Shown: piece by piece, positions 14,577 through 62,633 of the stretch | Layout: each line of letters opens with the position of its first letter | How positions within the stretch are numbered: position 1 is the first letter of the stretch | From: Myxococcales bacterium | GTDB lineage: Bacteria; Myxococcota_A; Polyangia; Haliangiales; Haliangiaceae | Length of the DNA: 64,000 nucleotides | NCBI GenBank assembly: GCA_016794525.1 | Contig: JAEUJY010000172.1 | Location: 1 to 64,000 of the forward strand | Direction of reading: 5' to 3' | Program-made: the position numbers and the translations under genes | Notes under the pieces: generated by a model | What the model saw: only the letters and a program-made list of their open reading frames with translations | Database searches by the model: none | What the model was told of the DNA's origin: nothing

Positions 14577-15416
14577 TCACACCAGGTCGCTCGTGCGGAA
14601 CCGCACGAACGCGAACAGCCAGGCGCCGGCGCCGACCACCGCCGGCCACGCGACGCCCAGCGCGTACAACGTCGAGGCGCCGACCTTGTTGGCCAGGTAG
14701 AAGCCCACCGGGCCCAGGTTGGACAGCTCGGGCTCGAGCCCCGACAGCAGCGCCATCCGCGCGTCCTGCACCGGGTTCATCGCCGCCAGCGTGAACACCG
14801 CGCGGGCGTCGACCCGCCAGCGCAGGAGCACGCCGATCAGCCCGAAGTCGAGCAGCGCCACGCCCAGCGCCCACGCCAGCACGACGTAGGTGGTCACCCG
14901 CGCCGGGTTGCGCACGACCGTCGAGATCGCCAGGCCGATGCCGGCGAACGCGGCGAGCAGCGACGCGCTGACCGCCAGCGCGCGCACGACGAACGCCCAC
15001 GGCACCCGCTGGCCCATCGCGAGCTGGCCGTACAGCGCCAGGCCCACCATCAGCGCCACCAGCGGCAGCACCAGCACCGCGTAGCGGGTCGCCGACACGC
15101 CGACGAACCACGCGCTGCGCGACAGCGGCTGGCTGAACAGCAGCTCGAGCGAGCCGTCGTCGCGGGCCCGGCCGATCACCGACGCCACCGCGGTCAACGC
15201 GAGCAGCGGCAGGATCAAGAGCAGCGCGTTGCACAGGGACATCAGCACCCGGCCCATGCCGGTGAAGCCCATCACCGTCGACTCGCGCAGCCCGACCAGC
15301 ACGAACACCACCGCGAGGATCAGGTAGGCGGCGCCGCAGAACCACAGCCAGCGCGAGCGGCGTACCTCGGCGAGATCGAGCCGCGCGGCGGCCAGCACCT
15401 GTCGTCCGAACGTCAT
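14577..15416 (-). CDS. nosY: NosY-type ABC transporter permease
   Basis: 279 aa. ATG 15416 overlaps the nosL stop (ATGA). It has six hydrophobic segments; RDDGSLELLFSQPLSRSAWF is the typical ABC-2/NosY cytoplasmic loop that contacts the ATPase. With NosF and NosD it forms the transporter complex that assembles the CuZ sulfide/copper site of NosZ. It is translationally coupled to nosL. Confidence 0.9.
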   Translation of the reverse strand: MTFGRQVLAAARLDLAEVRRSRWLWFCGAAYLILAVVFVLVGLRESTVMGFTGMGRVLMSLCNALLLILPLLALTAVASVIGRARDDGSLELLFSQPLSRSAWFVGVSATRYAVLVLPLVALMVGLALYGQLAMGQRVPWAFVVRALAVSASLLAAFAGIGLAISTVVRNPARVTTYVVLAWALGVALLDFGLIGVLLRWRVDARAVFTLAAMNPVQDARMALLSGLEPELSNLGPVGFYLANKVGASTLYALGVAWPAVVGAGAWLFAFVRFRTSDLV

Positions 15417-15889
15417 GGCATCGCTCCGGGTTGGGCCGGGCCGCCGTCGCGGGTGGCGACCACCGCGCGGGCGCCGGCGAGATCGAGCAGGCCGGGGCGG
15501 CGCTCGGCGGCGGTCAGCCCCCAGCCCATCGGCGTCATCGCGCCCTGGGCGAAGCCGACCTCGTCGGCGCCCAGCCAGCGATCGGCGCTGGGGTGGTGGA
15601 ACCACAGCCGGTGCACCCGCGGGTGGTGCTCGTCGAGGTAGCGCAGCAGGCAGCCGACGTCGTCGAAGTTGGCGACGGCGCCGTCGGTGGTGACCAGCTG
15701 CGCGGCGTAGCTGGGATCGCCGATCGCCATCCGGCAATGGGCGCAGCTCTCGCGGTTCCACACCACCGGCACCGGGCGATCGGGAGCGCGCGGGCTGCCG
15801 CCGAGCACCACCACCACCACCACGCCGACGGCGAGCAGCGCCGCCAGCGCCGCGCCGATCGCGCTCCACGGCAGGGCGCGCTCACGCAT
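15413..15889 (-). CDS. nosL: NosL copper chaperone
   Basis: 158 aa. An N-terminal membrane anchor is followed by the Cu(I)-binding motif ESCAHCRMAI and the family signature MTPMGWG near the C-terminus. Unlike most NosL it shows no clear lipobox, since the first Cys is in the metal site, so it is probably anchored by its N-terminal helix. It delivers copper to NosZ/NosD in the periplasm. It overlaps nosF by 8 bp upstream and nosY by 4 bp downstream. Confidence 0.9.
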   Translation of the reverse strand: MRERALPWSAIGAALAALLAVGVVVVVVLGGSPRAPDRPVPVVWNRESCAHCRMAIGDPSYAAQLVTTDGAVANFDDVGCLLRYLDEHHPRVHRLWFHHPSADRWLGADEVGFAQGAMTPMGWGLTAAERRPGLLDLAGARAVVATRDGGPAQPGAMP

Positions 15890-16757
15890 GGCCCACCTCC
15901 CCGAGCTCGAGCCGATCGCTGTCGCGGATCACCAGGTCCTCGACGCCGGCGCCCAGCGCGGCCAGCGCCGCCGGCACCAGCGCCAGCTTCTCGGCGGCGG
16001 CCACCGCCTTGGTCCACCAGCCGCCGTGGCCGGCGACGAAGCCGGCCGCCGCCAGCCAGCGCGGATCGGGGCCGCGGTAGCGCAGCTCGATCACCGCCGC
16101 CAGCCGGTCGGCCAGGTACGCCGCGGCCGGGCCGTCGTGGACCACGCGGCCCTCGGCCAGCACGACGACGTGGTCGACCAGCGCGCGCAGCTCGTCGAGC
16201 CGGTGCGAGCACAGGATCACCGTCGCGTCGGCCGCGACCCGGGCGAAGTGGTCGAAGAACCGGGCCCGCGCCGTGGCGTCGAGGCTGGCGGTCGGCTCGT
16301 CGAGGATCAGCAGCTCGGGCCGGCTGGCCAGCGCCAGCGCCAGCAAGAGCTTCTGCCGCATGCCGCCCGACAGCGCCCGCATCGCGCGGCGCCCGACCTG
16401 CGCGAGGTCGAGGCCGAGGTCGCCGGCGATCGTCGCCACCGCGGCGCGGGGGAAGCCGCGCAGCTCGCCGATCGCGCGGACGATCTCGTCGACCGAGGCC
16501 GCCATCTGCGGCGCGATCTGCGGCACGTAGGCCAGCCGCCCGGCGATCTGCAGCCGGTCGGTCAGCGGCGTGCCGTCGATCAGGATCTCGCCGTCGGCGG
16601 CGATCAGGCCCATCAGCGCCCGGGTCAGCGTGGTCTTGCCCGAGCCGTTGGGCCCGAGCAGCGCCACCTTGGCGCCGCGCGCGATCGTGAGGTCGACGTC
16701 GGTGAGCGCCGCGGTCGCGCCGAAGCGCTTGCCGACGTGCTTGAGGACGAGCTGCAC
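15882..16757 (-). CDS. nosF: NosF-type ABC transporter ATP-binding protein
   Basis: 291 aa. Walker A GPNGSGKTT is near residue 36, the signature LSGGMRQK mid-protein, Walker B LLILDEPTASLD, and the H-loop LCSHR. The roughly 60-residue C-terminal extension after the nucleotide-binding domain is common in NosF. It powers the NosDFY complex from the cytoplasmic side. It sits 1 bp from nosD and overlaps nosL. Confidence 0.92.
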   Translation of the reverse strand: MQLVLKHVGKRFGATAALTDVDLTIARGAKVALLGPNGSGKTTLTRALMGLIAADGEILIDGTPLTDRLQIAGRLAYVPQIAPQMAASVDEIVRAIGELRGFPRAAVATIAGDLGLDLAQVGRRAMRALSGGMRQKLLLALALASRPELLILDEPTASLDATARARFFDHFARVAADATVILCSHRLDELRALVDHVVVLAEGRVVHDGPAAAYLADRLAAVIELRYRGPDPRWLAAAGFVAGHGGWWTKAVAAAEKLALVPAALAALGAGVEDLVIRDSDRLELGEVGHA

Positions 16758-16758
16758 G

Positions 16759-18069
16759 TCACTCCTCCTGGCCGCCGGCGCCCGAGGCGGCCGGCTGCAT
16801 GCGCGGGTGGGGATCGATCAGCACCGGCTTGGCCGCGAACAGCGGGTCGAGCCGGCTGGCCGCGTCGGCCATCGCCAGCGCCGGCGTGCCGGTGAAGAAC
16901 TCGAGGTTGGGGTGGCGGTCGAACAGCGTGTGGGTCCACGAGCGCAGCTCGTAGGGCACGTCGCCGCGGCCGTCGTCGTCGAGGTCGTAGCCGGCGTAGT
17001 CGTCGAAGTAGTTGCCGGCCCAGGTCACGTCGAGCGCGTCGCCGCCGCCGTCGACCCGGCTGTGGGCGTCGTTGGCGATGAAGTCGTTGCCGGTCACGTC
17101 GGTGGCGTGGCCGCTGGCGTGGAACACCAGCGCCGCGCGGCACAGCCGCAGCTGGTTGCCCGCGATCACGACGCGCTGGTTGGGGCCCTGGGGCGTGGCG
17201 TCGAGGTAGATCCCGACCTGATCGTGGACCAGCAGGTTGTCGGTGATCGTGACGTTGCCCGAGTCCTTGAGGCCCAGCGCGATGCCGGCCGAACCGGCGG
17301 CGTTGGCGACGACGTTGCCGATCAGCCGGATGTCGTGGCTGTACATCACGAACACCCCGACCGTGCCGTCGACGTACTGGTTGCGCTCGACGTCCGAGCC
17401 GTCGCTGTACATGAAGTGCGTGCCGTAGCGACCGCGGATGATCCGGTTGTCGGTGATGCGGTTGCCGCGCGAGTACCAGACGACGACGTCGCGGCCGTCC
17501 TCGATCAGGTTGCCCGACACCTCGGAGTCGTAGGTCTCCCACAGCCGCAGCGTGTCGCCGCGCAGGCCGATCGACGGGTCGGTGCTGCCGCGGATGTGGT
17601 TGGCGTGCAGCGTCACCCGGTGGGCCTTCTCGACCAGCAGGCCGTAGACCGCGTGCTCGATCGTGACCCCCGCGACCTCGACCTCGTCGGCCGCGATCAG
17701 CACCGCGCCGTCGAGCTTGTCGTACCGCCCGCCGGAGCCGTCGACGGTCAGGCCCAAGAGCCGGGCCCGCGGCGCGACGATCCGCACGGTCGTGCCGCTG
17801 CCGGTCGACGCGATCACCGCGTCGGCCGGCCCCCACAGCGTCACCGCGTGGCGCACCTCCACCGTCCCCGGGTACCGCCCCGGCGCCAGGCACAGCGCGT
17901 CGCCGTCGCCGGCGGCGTCGAGCCGCGCCTGGAGGTCCTCGCCTTCGGCCACGGGCGCGCACGCCTCCGGGCGCGGCGGCCGGGGCAGCTCGCCGGCGGC
18001 GTCGTCGGCGACGGCGCGCCCGCCGCAGGCGGCGGCGAGCGCGAGGGCGGGGAGGGTGAGGGCGCGCAC
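16759..18069 (-). CDS. nosD: NosD periplasmic right-handed beta-helix protein
   Basis: 436 aa with an N-terminal signal peptide that may be lipidated (LAAACGG). The body is a right-handed parallel beta-helix built of CASH/NosD repeats such as NHIRGSTDP, NLIEDGRDVVVWYSRGNRITDN and RGRYGTHFMYSDGSDVERN. It contains the GxHFMYSxxxxxxxN block seen in NosD proteins. In the NosDFY complex it is the periplasmic part that receives copper from NosL and hands it to apo-NosZ. It lies 21 bp downstream of nosZ. Confidence 0.93.
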   Translation of the reverse strand: MRALTLPALALAAACGGRAVADDAAGELPRPPRPEACAPVAEGEDLQARLDAAGDGDALCLAPGRYPGTVEVRHAVTLWGPADAVIASTGSGTTVRIVAPRARLLGLTVDGSGGRYDKLDGAVLIAADEVEVAGVTIEHAVYGLLVEKAHRVTLHANHIRGSTDPSIGLRGDTLRLWETYDSEVSGNLIEDGRDVVVWYSRGNRITDNRIIRGRYGTHFMYSDGSDVERNQYVDGTVGVFVMYSHDIRLIGNVVANAAGSAGIALGLKDSGNVTITDNLLVHDQVGIYLDATPQGPNQRVVIAGNQLRLCRAALVFHASGHATDVTGNDFIANDAHSRVDGGGDALDVTWAGNYFDDYAGYDLDDDGRGDVPYELRSWTHTLFDRHPNLEFFTGTPALAMADAASRLDPLFAAKPVLIDPHPRMQPAASGAGGQEE

Positions 18070-18090: not shown

Positions 18091-20052
18091 CTACTTGGGC
18101 TCGACCAGCAGGTAGCCGGCCATCTCGAGGTGCAGCGCCGAGCAGAACTCGGTGCAGTACATCGGGAACACGCCGGCGCGATCCGCGACGAACGTGATGT
18201 CCGAGGCCTCGCCGGGCTCGATCGACACGTTGACGTTGTACGAGTTGATCGCGAAGCCGTGGGTCGCGTCGTAGGCCTGCTCGAGGTTGGTCAAGTGCAC
18301 GTGCACGGTCTCGCCCTCCTTGACCCGGATCACGTCGGGCGTGAAGTGCGAGCGGATCGCGGTCATGTAGACGTGGACGCCATCGGGCCGGCGCTCGATG
18401 CGCTCCTTGCCGCCCTCGGTCGCGTTGGGCGACAGCTGGCTGGTGACCGCGTCCTCGCCGGGCTTGTAGACGTCGACCGGCGCGAGCTTGTCGGCCTTGA
18501 TCATCTGCGCGTAGTGCGGCTCGCCCAGGCCGATCGGCAGGTCGTACAGCACCGTCATCTTCGGCGTGGTCAGGTCGACCAGCTGGAAGTTCTGCGGCAA
18601 GAGCGGGCCGACCTTGTTGAACCGGTCGAGCGCCCACTTGTTCATCGCGATGAGGTACTTGCCGTCGGGGCTGACGGTGTCGCCCTCGGCCGCGGTGAGG
18701 TGGCCGATGTTGTAGTGGGTCGACACCTTGTCGACGACCTTCAGGTCCTTGAGCGACCACTTGGCGACGACGGTCTCGAGGAACATCGAGGTGTAGGCGA
18801 AGCCCTGGTTGTCGTAGACCGTGTGCAGCGGGCCCAGGCCCAGCTCGACCTGGCCGCGGATCGACTCCTTGAAGTCGAGGATCGGCACGCCGAAGTCGTC
18901 CTTGCCGGCGTACTTCTTGGCGTCGATCAGCGCCTTCATCTTGGCGAACGAGTAGACGGTGCCGTGGGTGTCGAGCTTGCCGCCGACGACGATGTCCTGG
19001 CCGTCGGGGGTGACGTCGACGCCGTGCGGGCTCTTGGGCTCGGGCACGAAGGTCAGCACGCCCTCGGCCGCGGCGACGTCGAGCCGCAGCACCCTCATGC
19101 CGCCGATCATCTCGGTCTTGCCGGCCTTGACCAGCTCCTCGGCCTTCTTCCAGTTGACGACGTGGAGGTAGTCCATGTCGTTCTGCGAGCTCCCCGACTC
19201 CATCGGCGGGTTGCCCTCCATGTTCCCGCCCCACGACAGCTCGGTGTTGATCGAGTTGAAGAACGCGTAGCCGTCGCTGGCCAGCTTGCCGGCGTCGGCG
19301 AGGTCCTGGGTGTACGGCGGGAACTCGACCGCGAACGACGCGTCCTTGTCGATGCGGCCCTTGGCGCGATCGAACTTCCAGAACACCGCGGCGCCGCGGT
19401 ACTTGGTCTTGTACTCGGTCTTGGGGTCGGCGAAGCCACCGCCGAACGGGGTCGGGTACTGGGTGGTCTCGATGACGTAGTCGGTGTTCGGGGTGACGAA
19501 CGCCGCGCCGTGATCCGAGCCGATCAGCTGGGACGACACGATCTGCTTGGTGGTGAAGTCGGCGAGGTCGATCACCGCGACGCGGGCGTTGGCCTTGTCG
19601 CCGATGAACAGGAACTTGCCGTCGTAGTCGCCGCCCTGCTCGGACAGCGCCGGGTGGTGGGTGTCGGCCCAGCTCAGGTTGCGGCCGTGGCTGTCCGAGG
19701 CCAGGAGCCCCTTGGTCTGGTCGTCGAAGCCGTAGCCCTGCCACGGCTCGGGCGTGAACACGGCGATGTACTTGAGGATGCGCATCGACGGCACGCCGAT
19801 GACGACGACCTGGCCCGAGTGACCGCCCGACGCGAACGTCAGGTACTCGTCGAACTTGCCGGTGGGGGTGTAGGTCTTGAGCGCGGCGGTGACGTCGGCC
19901 TCGCTGAGCCCGCGGGCCTTCATCAGCTCGACCACGCCGCCCGACGGCGCCGGGCCCGAGCCGCCGCCGGCGGAGGATTGCTTGCCGCCGCTGCAGGCGG
20001 CGACGACGAGGCCGGCGGTGAGCCAGCCGAGACCAGACAGGGGCAGACGCAT
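18091..20052 (-). CDS. nosZ: clade II nitrous-oxide reductase, lipoprotein type
   Basis: 653 aa. ATG 20052 has an ideal AGGAGG site. The signal peptide is Sec-type with lipobox VVAACSG rather than the Tat signal of clade I NosZ, so the enzyme is probably membrane-anchored. The seven-bladed propeller carries the CuZ His ligands (DSHGRNLSWADTHHP, SPHGVDV, GPLHTVY, THYNIGHL, GEPHYAQ). The C-terminal cupredoxin holds CuA ligands Cys633, Cys637, His641 and Met644. It reduces N2O to N2. Cytochrome c upstream; nosDFLY downstream. Confidence 0.97.
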   Translation of the reverse strand: MRLPLSGLGWLTAGLVVAACSGGKQSSAGGGSGPAPSGGVVELMKARGLSEADVTAALKTYTPTGKFDEYLTFASGGHSGQVVVIGVPSMRILKYIAVFTPEPWQGYGFDDQTKGLLASDSHGRNLSWADTHHPALSEQGGDYDGKFLFIGDKANARVAVIDLADFTTKQIVSSQLIGSDHGAAFVTPNTDYVIETTQYPTPFGGGFADPKTEYKTKYRGAAVFWKFDRAKGRIDKDASFAVEFPPYTQDLADAGKLASDGYAFFNSINTELSWGGNMEGNPPMESGSSQNDMDYLHVVNWKKAEELVKAGKTEMIGGMRVLRLDVAAAEGVLTFVPEPKSPHGVDVTPDGQDIVVGGKLDTHGTVYSFAKMKALIDAKKYAGKDDFGVPILDFKESIRGQVELGLGPLHTVYDNQGFAYTSMFLETVVAKWSLKDLKVVDKVSTHYNIGHLTAAEGDTVSPDGKYLIAMNKWALDRFNKVGPLLPQNFQLVDLTTPKMTVLYDLPIGLGEPHYAQMIKADKLAPVDVYKPGEDAVTSQLSPNATEGGKERIERRPDGVHVYMTAIRSHFTPDVIRVKEGETVHVHLTNLEQAYDATHGFAINSYNVNVSIEPGEASDITFVADRAGVFPMYCTEFCSALHLEMAGYLLVEPK

Positions 20053-20120: not shown

Positions 20121-20549
20121 CTACTTGCCGCCCAGGCTGCGGACGTGAGCGCGGAGCGCGGCGAGCACCGCCGGATCCGACAGGTCGGGGTTGGCGGGCA
20201 TCGCCGGCGACTTGCCGACCGCCGCGCCGCCGTAGTGGACGATCTTCTCGATGTGCTCGTCGGTGACCGACGCCTGCCACGCCGGGTCGCTGAAGTTCCG
20301 CGGCGGCGGGGTCAGCCCCTTCGACGCGACGCCATCGCCCTTGCCCTCGGTGCCGTGGCAGGGCACGCAGCGCTGGGAGAAGATCTCCTTGGCCTTCGCG
20401 GTGGGATCGCCGCCACCAGCCGGCGGCGTCGGTGCGGGCGCGGGCGCGGCGGTGCCGGAGGCGGTACCGCCGCCGGTGTTGTCAGACTTGGAGCCACCGC
20501 AGGCAGCGGCGGTCAGCACGATCGCAAGGGTAAGGGAGCGTCGGTTCAT
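20121..20549 (-). CDS. c-type cytochrome lipoprotein, likely electron donor to NosZ
   Basis: 142 aa. Signal peptide with lipobox TAAACGG, an Ala/Pro/Gly linker, then a single heme-c domain with CVPCH and a distal Met in AMPANPDLSD. It is first in the nos operon, 68 bp before nosZ. Clade II clusters typically carry such cytochromes, which pass electrons from the quinol pool to NosZ. GAGGA at 20553-20557 lies 3 bp from the start codon. A candidate sigma54 promoter would start transcription 2 nt before the ATG. Confidence 0.92.
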   Translation of the reverse strand: MNRRSLTLAIVLTAAACGGSKSDNTGGGTASGTAAPAPAPTPPAGGGDPTAKAKEIFSQRCVPCHGTEGKGDGVASKGLTPPPRNFSDPAWQASVTDEHIEKIVHYGGAAVGKSPAMPANPDLSDPAVLAALRAHVRSLGGK

Positions 20550-20561
20550 GGTTCCTCAACG

Positions 20562-20577
20562 AGCAAAGGTGATGCCG
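20562..20577 (-). promoter_or_regulatory. candidate sigma54 (-24/-12) promoter of the nos operon
   Basis: The minus strand reads CGGCAT-CACCT-TTGCT, against the consensus TGGCAC-N5-TTGCW: correct GG/GC spacing and two mismatches outside the GG and GC cores. Predicted transcription start is about 20551, two bases before the cytochrome c ATG, so the message would be nearly leaderless. A NorR-like sigma54 activator gene lies immediately upstream. Confidence 0.6.
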
Positions 20578-20585
20578 ATCTCAGG

Positions 20586-20637
20586 TGCGCAACCGCTGCG
20601 ATCGGCGCGAACGCTGCGCAACGGGTGCGCGTTTCCT
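20586..20637. promoter_or_regulatory. direct repeats and operator-like sequence upstream of the nos promoter
   Basis: Two 15-bp direct repeats of pattern TGCGCAAC-N-G-N-TGCG lie at 20586-20600 and 20615-20629, 29 bp apart. The second merges into TGCGCGTTTC (20626-20635), a 10-mer also present, inverted, in the RIC-nirK intergenic palindrome. The position about 35-85 bp upstream of the predicted start fits activator binding. Function is inferred. Confidence 0.45.
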
Positions 20638-20647
20638 GAGCACCGCG

Positions 20648-22210
<1,563 letters not shown>

Positions 22211-22275
22211 GTTGTCGCGGGCACAATGCAGCCATCAGGCCAACGGCCTGTGGGGTGGCCGGCGCGAGCGATCCG

Positions 22276-23187
22276 CTAGCGGGTCGCGGTGCCCTTGACC
22301 CGACGGCGCGCGCCCGTGGCCTTGGCCCGGGCGGCGGTCGGGGCGGGCTTGATCCGCGCGCCCGGCGCGCCGGCGTCGAGCCAGGCGGCGGTCCGCGCGA
22401 AGTCGGCGAACCGGGTGGCCTTGGCCTCGGCGCCCAGGAACGCCAGCAGGTAGCGATGGCCGTCGATCTCGGCGCCGGTGATGAAGCAGTAGCCCGCCGC
22501 GCGGGTGAACCCGGTCTTGCCGCCGGTGACCTTGTACGTGCCGGCGACCATCGGCTGGTTGGTCGAGCCGTAGGCGATCTTGTTGGCGCCCGAGCGCGAC
22601 TTCACGACGTAGTAGGTGGTCCCCATGATCTCGGCCAGCACGGGGTCCTTCTGGGCCGCGCGCAGCGCCAGCGCCATCTCCCGGGCGGTCGAGACGTTGC
22701 CGCGCAGGCCCGACGAGTCGGTGAACTTGGTCTTCTTGAGGCCCAGGTCCTTGGCCACGTCGTTCATCGCCGCGATCAGCTGGTCGCGGGTCATCCCGGC
22801 GGCGCGCCCGAGCGCGGTCGGCGCCCGGTTGTCGGACGAGATCAGCATCGCCCGCAGCAGGTCGTGGTTGCGGAACGACTGGCCCACGTCCAGCCGCGTC
22901 CGCGAGCCGCCCTTCGCGGCGCGGGCGTCGTCGCGGGTGATCTCGGTCCAGTCGTCGAGGGCGATCTTGTGCTTCCGCACCGCCATCGCCACGAAGATCT
23001 TCGTCGTCGACGCGATGGCCCGGACGGAGTCCGCGTCTTTGGCGAAGATCTCGGCTCCGGTGTCGGCGTCGATCACGACCGCCGAACGCGACTTGATCTC
23101 GGGGAGTTCCGACGGCTTATCGGCCATCGCAGGCCCGGAGATCAGCCCCCACAGCAGCAGGGATGTCACGAACGCGGCCGTGCGCAT
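22276..23187 (-). CDS. D-alanyl-D-alanine carboxypeptidase/endopeptidase (PBP, S11 family)
   Basis: 303 aa from ATG 23187, chosen because it begins a Sec signal peptide ending GPAMA; a longer in-frame opening exists upstream but adds a charged leader. All three S11 motifs are present: STTK (IASTTKIF), SxN as SSDN, and KTG as GGKTG. It trims peptidoglycan stem peptides or cross-links in the periplasm. The C-terminal tail is basic rather than the amphipathic helix of DacA, closer to PbpG-type enzymes. Same strand as norR, 65 bp upstream of it. Confidence 0.92.
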
Positions 23188-60050: not shown

Positions 60051-60716
60051 TCACACGAAGCGCGGCATCAACACGTGGTTCTCGATGTGGACGTGGCGGA
60101 GGACGTCGGCCTCGAGCGCGGCCAGCTCGGCGAACAGCGTGCGGTAGGTGGTGCAGGCCCACGCCGGCGGGGTGAAGTCGTCGGTGATCGTGCGCAGCCT
60201 GCCCAGGCGGTCGCCGATCGCGACGTGATCGTCGAACATCGTGGCCAGCTCGGCGGTCAGCGCGCGGCGGTCGCCGCTCGGGGCGATCAGCCCGGGGAAC
60301 AGGTGCTGCTCCTCTTGATCGAGGTGGGCGTCGAGGTCGGCCGCCAGGGTCTTGCACAGCGCGTCGACCTCGGCCAGGCGCGGCTCCTTGTCGCCGTGGA
60401 CCCGGTGGACCTTGGCGGCGAGCCCGCCGATGAACGGCAGCGCCTTGCGCAGATACGCGTGGTGGGTCGAGACGATGTGCCCGATCAGCTCGGGCGTCGG
60501 CAGCGCCGCCGCGGCGATCGCGCCATCGCCGCGCTCGGCGATGGCGTCCTCGAGCTCGGCCAGGATCCGGGGCAACGCCACGCCGCGCTGATCGCAGGCG
60601 TCGGCGATCGATCGCGCGCCCTGGCAGCAGTAGTCGATGCGGTGGCGGTGGAAGACCTCGGCGCAGGCGGAGTGTGCGAGGACGGTCTGGGCAACGCTGG
60701 CGTGGGGATCGATCAT
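60051..60716 (-). CDS. di-iron Fe-S cluster repair protein (RIC/ScdA/DnrN/YtfE family)
   Basis: 221 aa, ATG 60716. The N-terminal ScdA domain has FHRHRIDYCCQGARS (Cys-Cys motif). The C-terminal hemerythrin-like domain has His/Glu iron ligands in STHHAYLRKALP, HLDQEEQHLFP, FDDHVAIGD and HVHIENHVLMPRF. It repairs Fe-S clusters damaged by NO or peroxide. Divergent from nirK. A near-consensus sigma54 promoter would place its transcript start 2 nt before the ATG, with no Shine-Dalgarno visible. Confidence 0.95.
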   Translation of the reverse strand: MIDPHASVAQTVLAHSACAEVFHRHRIDYCCQGARSIADACDQRGVALPRILAELEDAIAERGDGAIAAAALPTPELIGHIVSTHHAYLRKALPFIGGLAAKVHRVHGDKEPRLAEVDALCKTLAADLDAHLDQEEQHLFPGLIAPSGDRRALTAELATMFDDHVAIGDRLGRLRTITDDFTPPAWACTTYRTLFAELAALEADVLRHVHIENHVLMPRFV

Positions 60717-60728
60717 GGGCCGGCGAGC

Positions 60729-60744
60729 AGCAACGGTCGTGCCG
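60729..60744 (-). promoter_or_regulatory. candidate sigma54 (-24/-12) promoter of the RIC gene
   Basis: The minus strand reads CGGCAC-GACCG-TTGCT, one mismatch to TGGCAC-N5-TTGCW with exact spacing. Predicted start about 60718, two bases from the ATG, implying leaderless translation. This is the best of the three such sites in the window. Confidence 0.72.
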
Positions 60745-61073: not shown

Positions 61074-61089
61074 CGGCGTGGTGCTTGCT
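61074..61089 (+). promoter_or_regulatory. candidate sigma54 (-24/-12) promoter of nirK
   Basis: The plus strand reads CGGCGT-GGTGC-TTGCT: correct GG/GC spacing and an intact TTGCT, three mismatches in the less critical positions. Predicted start about 61100, leaving a 16-base leader with AGGAGG at 61102-61107 before the nirK ATG. Confidence 0.5.
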
Positions 61090-61115: not shown

Positions 61116-62633
61116 ATGTCGAAGATGCTTCGGGTGGTTCTCGGGCTCGGGCTGGCCGGAACCCTGGCCTGCAAGGGTGGCGGCGGCAACGCGGCGGCCG
61201 GCGGTGGCAACCCGCCGCCGTCGGCGGCGCCACCGCCGGCCGACGTCACGAGCGCGCCGGTCGGCGATCCCGTGGTCGCCCAGCTCACCCCGCCGCCGTT
61301 CGTCCCGCCGCCGATCACGCGCGACAAGCCGGCCAAGGTGATCGTCAAGCTCGAGGTGCAGGAGAAGGAGCTGTCGATCTCCGAGGGCGTCCGCTACACG
61401 TTCTGGACGTTCGGCGGCACCGTGCCCGGCAGCTTCATCCGGGTGCGGCAAGGCGACGAGGTCGAGTTCCACCTGCAGAACCACCCCGGCAACAAGATGC
61501 CGCACAACATCGACCTGCACGCGGTGACCGGCCCCGGCGGCGGCGCCGCCAGCTCGTTCACCGCGCCCGGGCACGAGTCGCAGTTCTCGTTCCGCGCGCT
61601 CAACCCCGGCCTGTACGTCTACCACTGCGCCACCGCGCCGGTGCCGATGCACGTCGCCAACGGCATGTACGGGCTGATCCTCGTCGAGCCGCCCGGTGGG
61701 CTGCCCAAGGTCGACAAAGAGTACTACGTCGTGCAGGGCGACTTCTACACGGTCGGCAAGTACCGCGAGAAGGGCCTGCAGCCGTTCGACATGCAGAAGG
61801 GCATCGACGAGAGCCCGACCTACGTGGTGTTCAACGGCTCGGAGGGCGCGCTGGTCGGCGACAAGGCGCTCACCGCCAAGGTCGGCGAGAGGGTGCGCAT
61901 CTACTTCGGCGTCGGCGGCCCGAACCTGTCGTCGAGCTTCCACGTCATCGGCGAGATCTTCGACCACGTCTACCAGGAGGGCGGCAGCAACACCCAGGAC
62001 AACGTCCAGACCACGATGGTGCCGGCCGGCGGCTCGACGATCGTCGACTTCACGGTGAACGTGCCCGGCACGTACATCCTGGTCGATCACGCGCTGTTCC
62101 GCGCGTTCAACAAGGGCGCGGTCGGCATGCTCAAGGTCGAGGGGCCGGAGGACAAGATCGTCTACTCGGGCAAGGAGGTCGACTCGGTGTACCTGTCGGA
62201 CAAGGCCGGCTCGGGCGTCGGCACGACGGTGGCCGAGGCGACCGCGTCGGCCGAGGCCGGCACGCTGACGCTCGACCAGCAGATCGCCGCCGGCCAGGCG
62301 CTGTTCGCCGGGACCTGCTCGACCTGCCACCAGCCCGACGGCAAGGGCCTGCTGCCCACGTTCCCCCCGCTGGCCGCGTCGACCTACATCGCGGCGACCC
62401 CGATGGACACGCTGATCAGCGGCGTGCTCAACGGGCTCACCGGGCCGGTGCAGGTCAACGGCGTCGACTACAACGGCGTGATGCCGCCGATGTCGTACCT
62501 GGCCGACGACGACCTCGCCAACATGATGACGTACGTGTTCAACACGATGGGCAACAAGAAGGGCGCCGTGAGCAAGGCCGACGTCGCGCGGATCCGCGCG
62601 ACCACGCCGCGGCCACCGGGCGCCGCGCATTGA
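61116..62633 (+). CDS. nirK: copper nitrite reductase fused to a C-terminal cytochrome c domain, lipoprotein
   Basis: 505 aa, ATG 61116 after AGGAGG. Lipobox GTLACKGG. Two cupredoxin domains: type 1 and type 2 Cu ligands in [25 protein letters not shown] (His170, Cys171, His180, Met185) and [14 protein letters not shown] heme-c domain follows with CSTCH at 401-405 and a distal Met in VMPPMSYL. It reduces nitrite to NO; the fused heme shortens electron delivery. First gene of nirK-nirV-SCO. Confidence 0.96.

Follow-up and report, generated by a model that had tools for sequence, protein, structure and literature searches.

The nitrous-oxide reductase (nos) operon in the window, the whole 64,000-nucleotide stretch of DNA analysed here, is very probably transcribed from a sigma-54 promoter, CGGCATCACCTTTGCT, that lies directly in front of its first gene and is conserved in position among relatives. 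The adjacent gene encodes NorR, an activator that would couple this promoter to nitric oxide. On balance we favor an explanation in which NO-sensing NorR acts on the sigma-54 box by DNA looping and produces a near-leaderless nos mRNA, and we hold this combined reading to be probable rather than secure. Sequence comparison shows the box and its conservation, the NorR identity of the regulator and its linkage to nos, the NorR site triplet and the distance from box to ATG; promoter use, response to NO, looping and leaderless translation are predictions from these. The preliminary description of this DNA, which had proposed a sigma-54 promoter for nos beside a NorR-like activator, was largely right. 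The activator sites lie elsewhere than it had placed them, NorR control is likely but unproven, and the fusion of promoter and start codon was the unexpected part.

In soil, clade II N2O reducers form an important sink for this greenhouse gas, and to our knowledge little is known about what switches their nos genes on. Sigma-54 promoters are a rare promoter type. If sigma-54 control is true, nos would be strictly activator-dependent; if NorR control is true, N2O reduction would be tied to NO and not to oxygen or nitrate via FNR-type factors.

The nos operon and the box in front of it

On the minus strand, norR is followed after a gap of 98 bp by genes for a cytochrome c lipoprotein, NosZ, NosD, NosF and NosY (Table 1). 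This is the nos operon that had previously been read downstream of the box; its NosZ is of the clade II, Sec-dependent type, and CGGCATCACCTTTGCT, as a working sigma-54 promoter, would drive all five genes. The start of nosZ was inferred at the lipoprotein-like sequence MRLPLSG. Elsewhere in the window, a gene for a RIC/YtfE-type iron-sulfur repair protein has a sigma-54 box of its own and is likely a member of the same sigma-54 regulon as nos. The divergent gene nirK has only a weak sigma-54-like box (8/11) at 61074. With nirK and nosZ, the window thus holds one NO-producing and one N2O-reducing enzyme.

Table 1. Positions of genes, promoter elements and putative regulator sites in the window
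Feature	Position	Strand	Evidence or remark
nosY-like ABC permease	14577..15869	minus	ABC2_membrane_2; synteny
nosF-like ABC ATPase	15882..16757	minus	ABC_tran; place after nosD conserved
nosD	16759..18069	minus	TIGR04247 316.7 bits, cut-off 300
nosZ, Sec-dependent (clade II) nitrous-oxide reductase	18091..20052 (approximate)	minus	TIGR04246 836.5 bits, cut-off 625
Cytochrome c lipoprotein, first nos operon gene	20121..20549	minus	Pfam Cytochrom_C 32.8 bits; synteny in relatives
Predicted near-leaderless start	20550..20562	minus	13 nt between -12 C and ATG at 20549; SD-like GAGGA would lie inside promoter
Sigma-54 -24/-12 box CGGCATCACCTTTGCT of cytochrome c-nosZ operon	20562..20577	minus	9/11 to TGGCACNNNNNTTGCW, GG-N10-GC core
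Direct repeats TGCGCAAC	20586-20593, 20615-20622	plus	proposed previously; probably not activator sites
norR, sigma-54 activator (GAF, AAA+ with GAFTGA, Fis-type HTH)	20648..22210	minus	NF003451 NorR 659 bits, cut-off 476
Three NorR-type sites in register over norR 5' end	22211-22227, 22188-22204, 22169-22185	minus	PWM 11.9, 8.5, 6.6
RIC/YtfE-type iron-sulfur repair protein	60051..60716	minus	TIGR03652 215.1 bits
RIC sigma-54 box CGGCACGACCGTTGCT	60729..60744	minus	10/11; -12 C 13 nt before ATG
nirK, copper nitrite reductase (NO source)	61116..62633	plus	TIGR02376 373.5 bits; divergent from RIC

Taken alone, CGGCATCACCTTTGCT is a modest match to the consensus. All box scores given here count agreement with the 11 positions of TGGCACNNNNNTTGCW, a consensus taken as given and not fitted, and on this scale the window box is among the weakest in the family set. 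In a plain scan, the pattern with two mismatches was found 9 times in the window and 17 times in shuffles; about 0.01 sites like CGGCATCACCTTTGCT are expected in the gap between norR and the cytochrome c gene. The window's genome contains rpoN (Sigma54_DBD, 221.8 bits), and no match to a sigma-70-type promoter or a terminator was found in 20400-22400.

The comparison with relatives carries the argument. We searched 115 genomes, the window's own included, many of the comparison genomes being MAGs. NosZ was found above the cut-off in 17, and long partial or divergent matches in three more (G020, G077 and G092) brought the nosZ-bearing genomes to 20. Ten of these (G000-G004, G009, G010, G011, G015 and G020) belong to the window's family, for which Kofleriaceae is a provisional name. 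In every one of the ten, the cytochrome c gene is preceded by a box scoring 9/11 or better that leads into the lipoprotein start, with the GG-N10-GC core and its position kept. It is because of this positional conservation, not the match in isolation, that we accept the -24/-12 box noted earlier as a predicted sigma-54 promoter. At 80 named nosZ loci, mostly from Myxococcota, coding-strand boxes of at least 9/11 numbered 41 in the 750 bp before nosZ, where 6.8 would be expected from the rate further upstream, and those of at least 10/11 numbered 18, where 0.83 would be expected (P ~3e-18), all counted per site and not per locus. Given this excess, sigma-54 promoters look common for nos in Myxococcota. 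Sigma-54 boxes also precede nos at a few loci titled Planctomycetota.

NorR and other candidate activators

The gene beside the box had been taken for a GAF-domain activator with a GAFTGA motif, and our analysis identifies its product, by the NCBIfam equivalog model, as a NorR with a Fis-type HTH. Its identity to E. coli NorR is 50%, and it keeps the GAFTGA sigma-54 contact loop. An alternative ORF at 20691-22235 was rejected as the regulator, being in the wrong frame and having no family matches. Of the GAF-domain iron site, R75, D96 (which we take to be one of its residues), D99, H111 and C113 are retained, and R81 is kept as well; Y98 is replaced by F, as it is in all seven aligned rows other than E. 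coli, namely those of the window and six relatives. In the accessible part of the source, R75, Y98, D99, H111 and C113 are given as iron-centre residues of NorR (PMC2941729). The adjacent NorR would sense NO at this iron, and its GAFTGA loop and AAA+ ATPase would open the sigma-54 polymerase, tying N2O respiration to NO. In these soil myxobacteria, the position of a sigma-54 box right at the start codon and beside an NO-sensor gene suggests, without proving it, that NO turns nos on.

Linkage of norR with nosZ was found in 8 of the 20 nosZ-bearing genomes. In six, norR immediately precedes the cytochrome c gene and nosZ in the same orientation (G000, G004, G009, G010, G020 and G011), in two it is divergent from nosZ (G104 and G077), and each of the eight carries a sigma-54 box scoring 9/11 or better that leads into nos. 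The norR of G011, a MAG, is split by an apparent frameshift (L063:270-1665) that may be a sequencing error. Across the phylum this adjacency is rare: among 377 sampled genomes, NorR was present in 30 (E ≤1e-140) and NosZ in 114 (E ≤1e-60), and the two were adjacent by coordinates in three. A NorR-level match lies beside nosZ at 4 of the 80 named loci (L089, L091, L093 and L107), the first three being G004, G010 and G009 again by contig and L107 one further case. In a tree of 23 NorRs the nos-linked proteins do not form one clade and three label changes are needed, a pattern compatible with the linkage having arisen more than once.

Several further norR neighborhoods were also seen. In two related genomes moaA comes after norR, and a sigma-54 box separates the two (L077:9431-10477 and L079:8863-9909), making molybdenum cofactor synthesis a possible NorR target. 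At another locus norR lies near a gene for a fused copper nitrite reductase and cytochrome c (L084:8824-10287). A DUF6448 gene divergent from norR (L086:8930-9523), with three NorR-like sites and a sigma-54 box, is a candidate NO-response gene.

Putative NorR sites were scored with a matrix built from 15 training sites, 12 of them from the triplets later recognized and none from the window; 14 of the 15 score 13.7-20 and the weakest (L057) 7.9. The region 22169..22227 holds the window's only triplet in register with all three sites above a score of 3. Its spacing is 23 and 19, and it is imperfect, the middle site being without the G of GT. In G004, G009, G010 and G020, a GT-N7-AC triplet with spacing of 24 and 19 also lies at the norR 5' end. 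When 12 whole genomes were searched for the exact pattern, each of these four gave one match, at norR, and the reversed pattern used as a control gave none. The sole exact match in the window's own genome (G000, C126) was set aside as apparent chance. A RIC-type gene lies divergently on the other side of the norR triplet in G004, G010 and G020. No GT-N7-AC site was found in the gap between norR and the cytochrome c gene in any of the five co-oriented relatives, and the window's one is inside norR. The direct repeats TGCGCAAC, which are also present at 2827 and 42341 of the window, had been put forward earlier as activator sites and did not stand up: they misfit the NorR motif and occur in the promoters of none of nine relatives, and the best NorR-motif score in 20550-20647 is 3.3.

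Outside the family, two loci have sites and promoter side by side. In G104, the classical sites GTCAATATGAC, GTCATATTGAC and GTCAAACTGAC stand at -96, -76 and -63 bp from the sigma-54 box into nosZ. The order at L107 is norR, NorR sites (19.6 and 11.9), a sigma-54 box, and then genes for RIC, cytochrome c and NosZ; the RIC gene there (L107:5784-6701) is in one apparent operon with those for cytochrome c and NosZ. In the window's genome, two strong NorR sites (scores 17.3 and 13.0) precede the weak sigma-54-like box (8/11) of the C64 RIC gene. NorR therefore probably governs NO defence in this organism, with nos a likely second target, perhaps by looping. NorR would probably be held at the three predicted sites that overlap the start of its own gene, some 1.6 kb upstream of the nos promoter, which it may reach through a DNA loop.

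Control of nos by NorR, as raised in the preliminary description, is thus plausible, most strongly in G104 and L107 with their canonical sites and box. It is unproven in the window's lineage, because the sites lie 1.6 kb away at the norR 5' end and because three genomes of the same genus as the window (G001, G002 and G003; completeness 96, 94 and 75%) keep the nos sigma-54 box and have no NorR detectable at E ≤1e-150. At least in those three, then, another activator can serve the box. An NtrC-type response regulator gene beyond nosY in G002 and G003 (L058:207-1592(-) and L066:3-458) is a candidate for this replacement. It is conceivable that such an enhancer-binding protein also activates a sigma-54-dependent nos promoter in the window's organism, that NorR targets RIC and norR itself, and that the linkage of norR with nos is inherited. 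Orthologs of the NtrC-type regulator are present in all ten family genomes searched, the window's included; many loci have sigma-54 boxes upstream of nos and no adjacent norR; other sigma-54 activators stand beside nosZ in further lineages; and in G004, G010 and G020 the NorR triplet adjoins a divergent RIC-type gene. Against this reading, norR stands directly before the nos promoter in six family genomes and divergent from nosZ in two others, NorR sites directly precede the nos promoter in G104 and L107, and the response regulator of the window's genome is encoded on C153, not near nos. We regard control by another enhancer-binding protein as rather unlikely, if the most serious of the alternatives. 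NorR is the activator that we consider probable for the nos promoter in the window's organism. The promoter class is firmer than the identity of the activator, given the norR-less genomes, the NtrC-type regulator and the activators of other lineages.

Spacing between promoter and start codon

With 13 nt from the -12 C to the ATG, the transcript would start about 2 nt before the ATG and would lack the SD-like GAGGA. The predicted start at about 20551 agrees with the one given earlier. The nos mRNA may accordingly be described as near-leaderless, beginning at the ATG or no more than about 3 nt away from it. We had considered that a box this close to the ATG, with GAGGA between, might not be the promoter of this gene, and dropped the idea since the spacing recurs family-wide. 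The distance is 13 nt at the cytochrome c gene of G011, 14 nt at that of G001, and 13 nt at both the window RIC gene and the C64 RIC gene; other cytochrome c promoters have 26-35 nt from box to ATG. In 28 family genomes, the strict core GGCAC-N5-TTGC has an ATG 11-14 nt behind it in 636 cases and 16-19 nt behind it in 158, a roughly fourfold difference, against 28 and 27 for the reversed-pattern controls; in the window's genome the counts are 36 and 5, with controls of 0 and 0, all of these being matches and not independent events, with the ATG not required to be a true start. Among the loci examined, ATG starts at most 60 nt from a strong box lie 11-14 nt from it in 11 of 30 cases in the family, part of them orthologous genes in related genomes, compared with 2 of 45 cases from other lineages (P 0.0005). 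Family genes with a box 11-14 nt before the ATG include ones that have nothing to do with nos or RIC. Leaderless transcription from sigma-54 promoters thus looks habitual in the family.

The same data bear on the possibility that the window box has decayed, nos then being transcribed by read-through out of norR, with the SD-like GAGGA ahead of the cytochrome c ATG directing translation. A score of 9/11, a GAGGA that stands at SD distance and would be absent from a transcript starting at 20551, and a gap of 98 bp without a terminator match speak for this. We nevertheless find it improbable, as the core and position are kept in all ten genomes and the 13-nt spacing is seen again across the family and at the two RIC genes of the window's genome that are linked to sigma-54 boxes. 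That the box is a chance match without promoter function, a view favored by a two-mismatch pattern that shuffles yield at least as often as the window, is countered by its positional conservation and by the excess of strong boxes in front of nosZ, and we give it very little credence.

The sigma-54 promoter proposed here for nos may exemplify something broader. In the boldest form of this proposal, Kofleriaceae routinely fuse sigma-54 promoters to start codons and so produce activator-gated leaderless mRNAs, NorR thereby ties both N2O respiration and iron-sulfur repair to NO, and G104 and L107, with their canonical sites, represent a second, independent NorR-nosZ wiring; we see the case for and against this extension as evenly balanced. 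If true, such fused sigma-54 promoters would represent an unusual way of expressing bacterial genes and would affect start-codon annotation throughout the family.

Comparison with known systems

The arrangement in the window resembles E. coli norVW and R. eutropha norAB in its predicted NO sensor of GAF, AAA+ and HTH domains, its three putative and imperfect sites of the GT-N7-AC type, its predicted sigma-54 promoter and the location of norR beside the likely target. Those systems serve NO detoxification, whereas the predicted target here is an N2O reductase with a cytochrome c and Nos accessory genes, and in Kofleriaceae the sites sit over the 5' end of norR, at a distance of 1.6 kb from the promoter. 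In the accessible part of one survey, the targets given for NorR are norVW, norAB, norB, hmp, hcp, dnrN and nnrS, with nos not among them, and NorR is reported only in beta- and gamma-proteobacteria (PMC1274295).

Clade II (Sec-type) nos clusters have the genes for cytochrome c, NosZ, NosD, NosF and NosY in common with the window, which differs in having a NorR-type regulator and a predicted sigma-54 promoter in front. In Proteobacteria, where FNR, DNR, NnrR or FixK2 regulates nos, nosZ likewise responds to NO or low oxygen, but these are CRP/FNR-type factors, unlike the NorR-type activator considered here. At B. diazoefficiens nosR, no -24/-12 element was found according to the accessible portion of the report (PMC5582078). 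Among open-access titles and abstract openings, there was no recognizable report of NorR control of nos, of sigma-54 nos promoters in Myxococcota, or of family-wide leaderless sigma-54 promoters. Both leaderless and sigma-54 starts have been mapped in S. meliloti, with no link drawn between them in the text available from that study (PMC3616915). The nearest analogue, as far as the available text of the source describes it, is a promoter fused to the start codon across a family or phylum, as we propose here (PMC12340547). The promoters in that case are of the classical -10 type, whereas the element fused to the start codon in Kofleriaceae would be a sigma-54 -24/-12 box.
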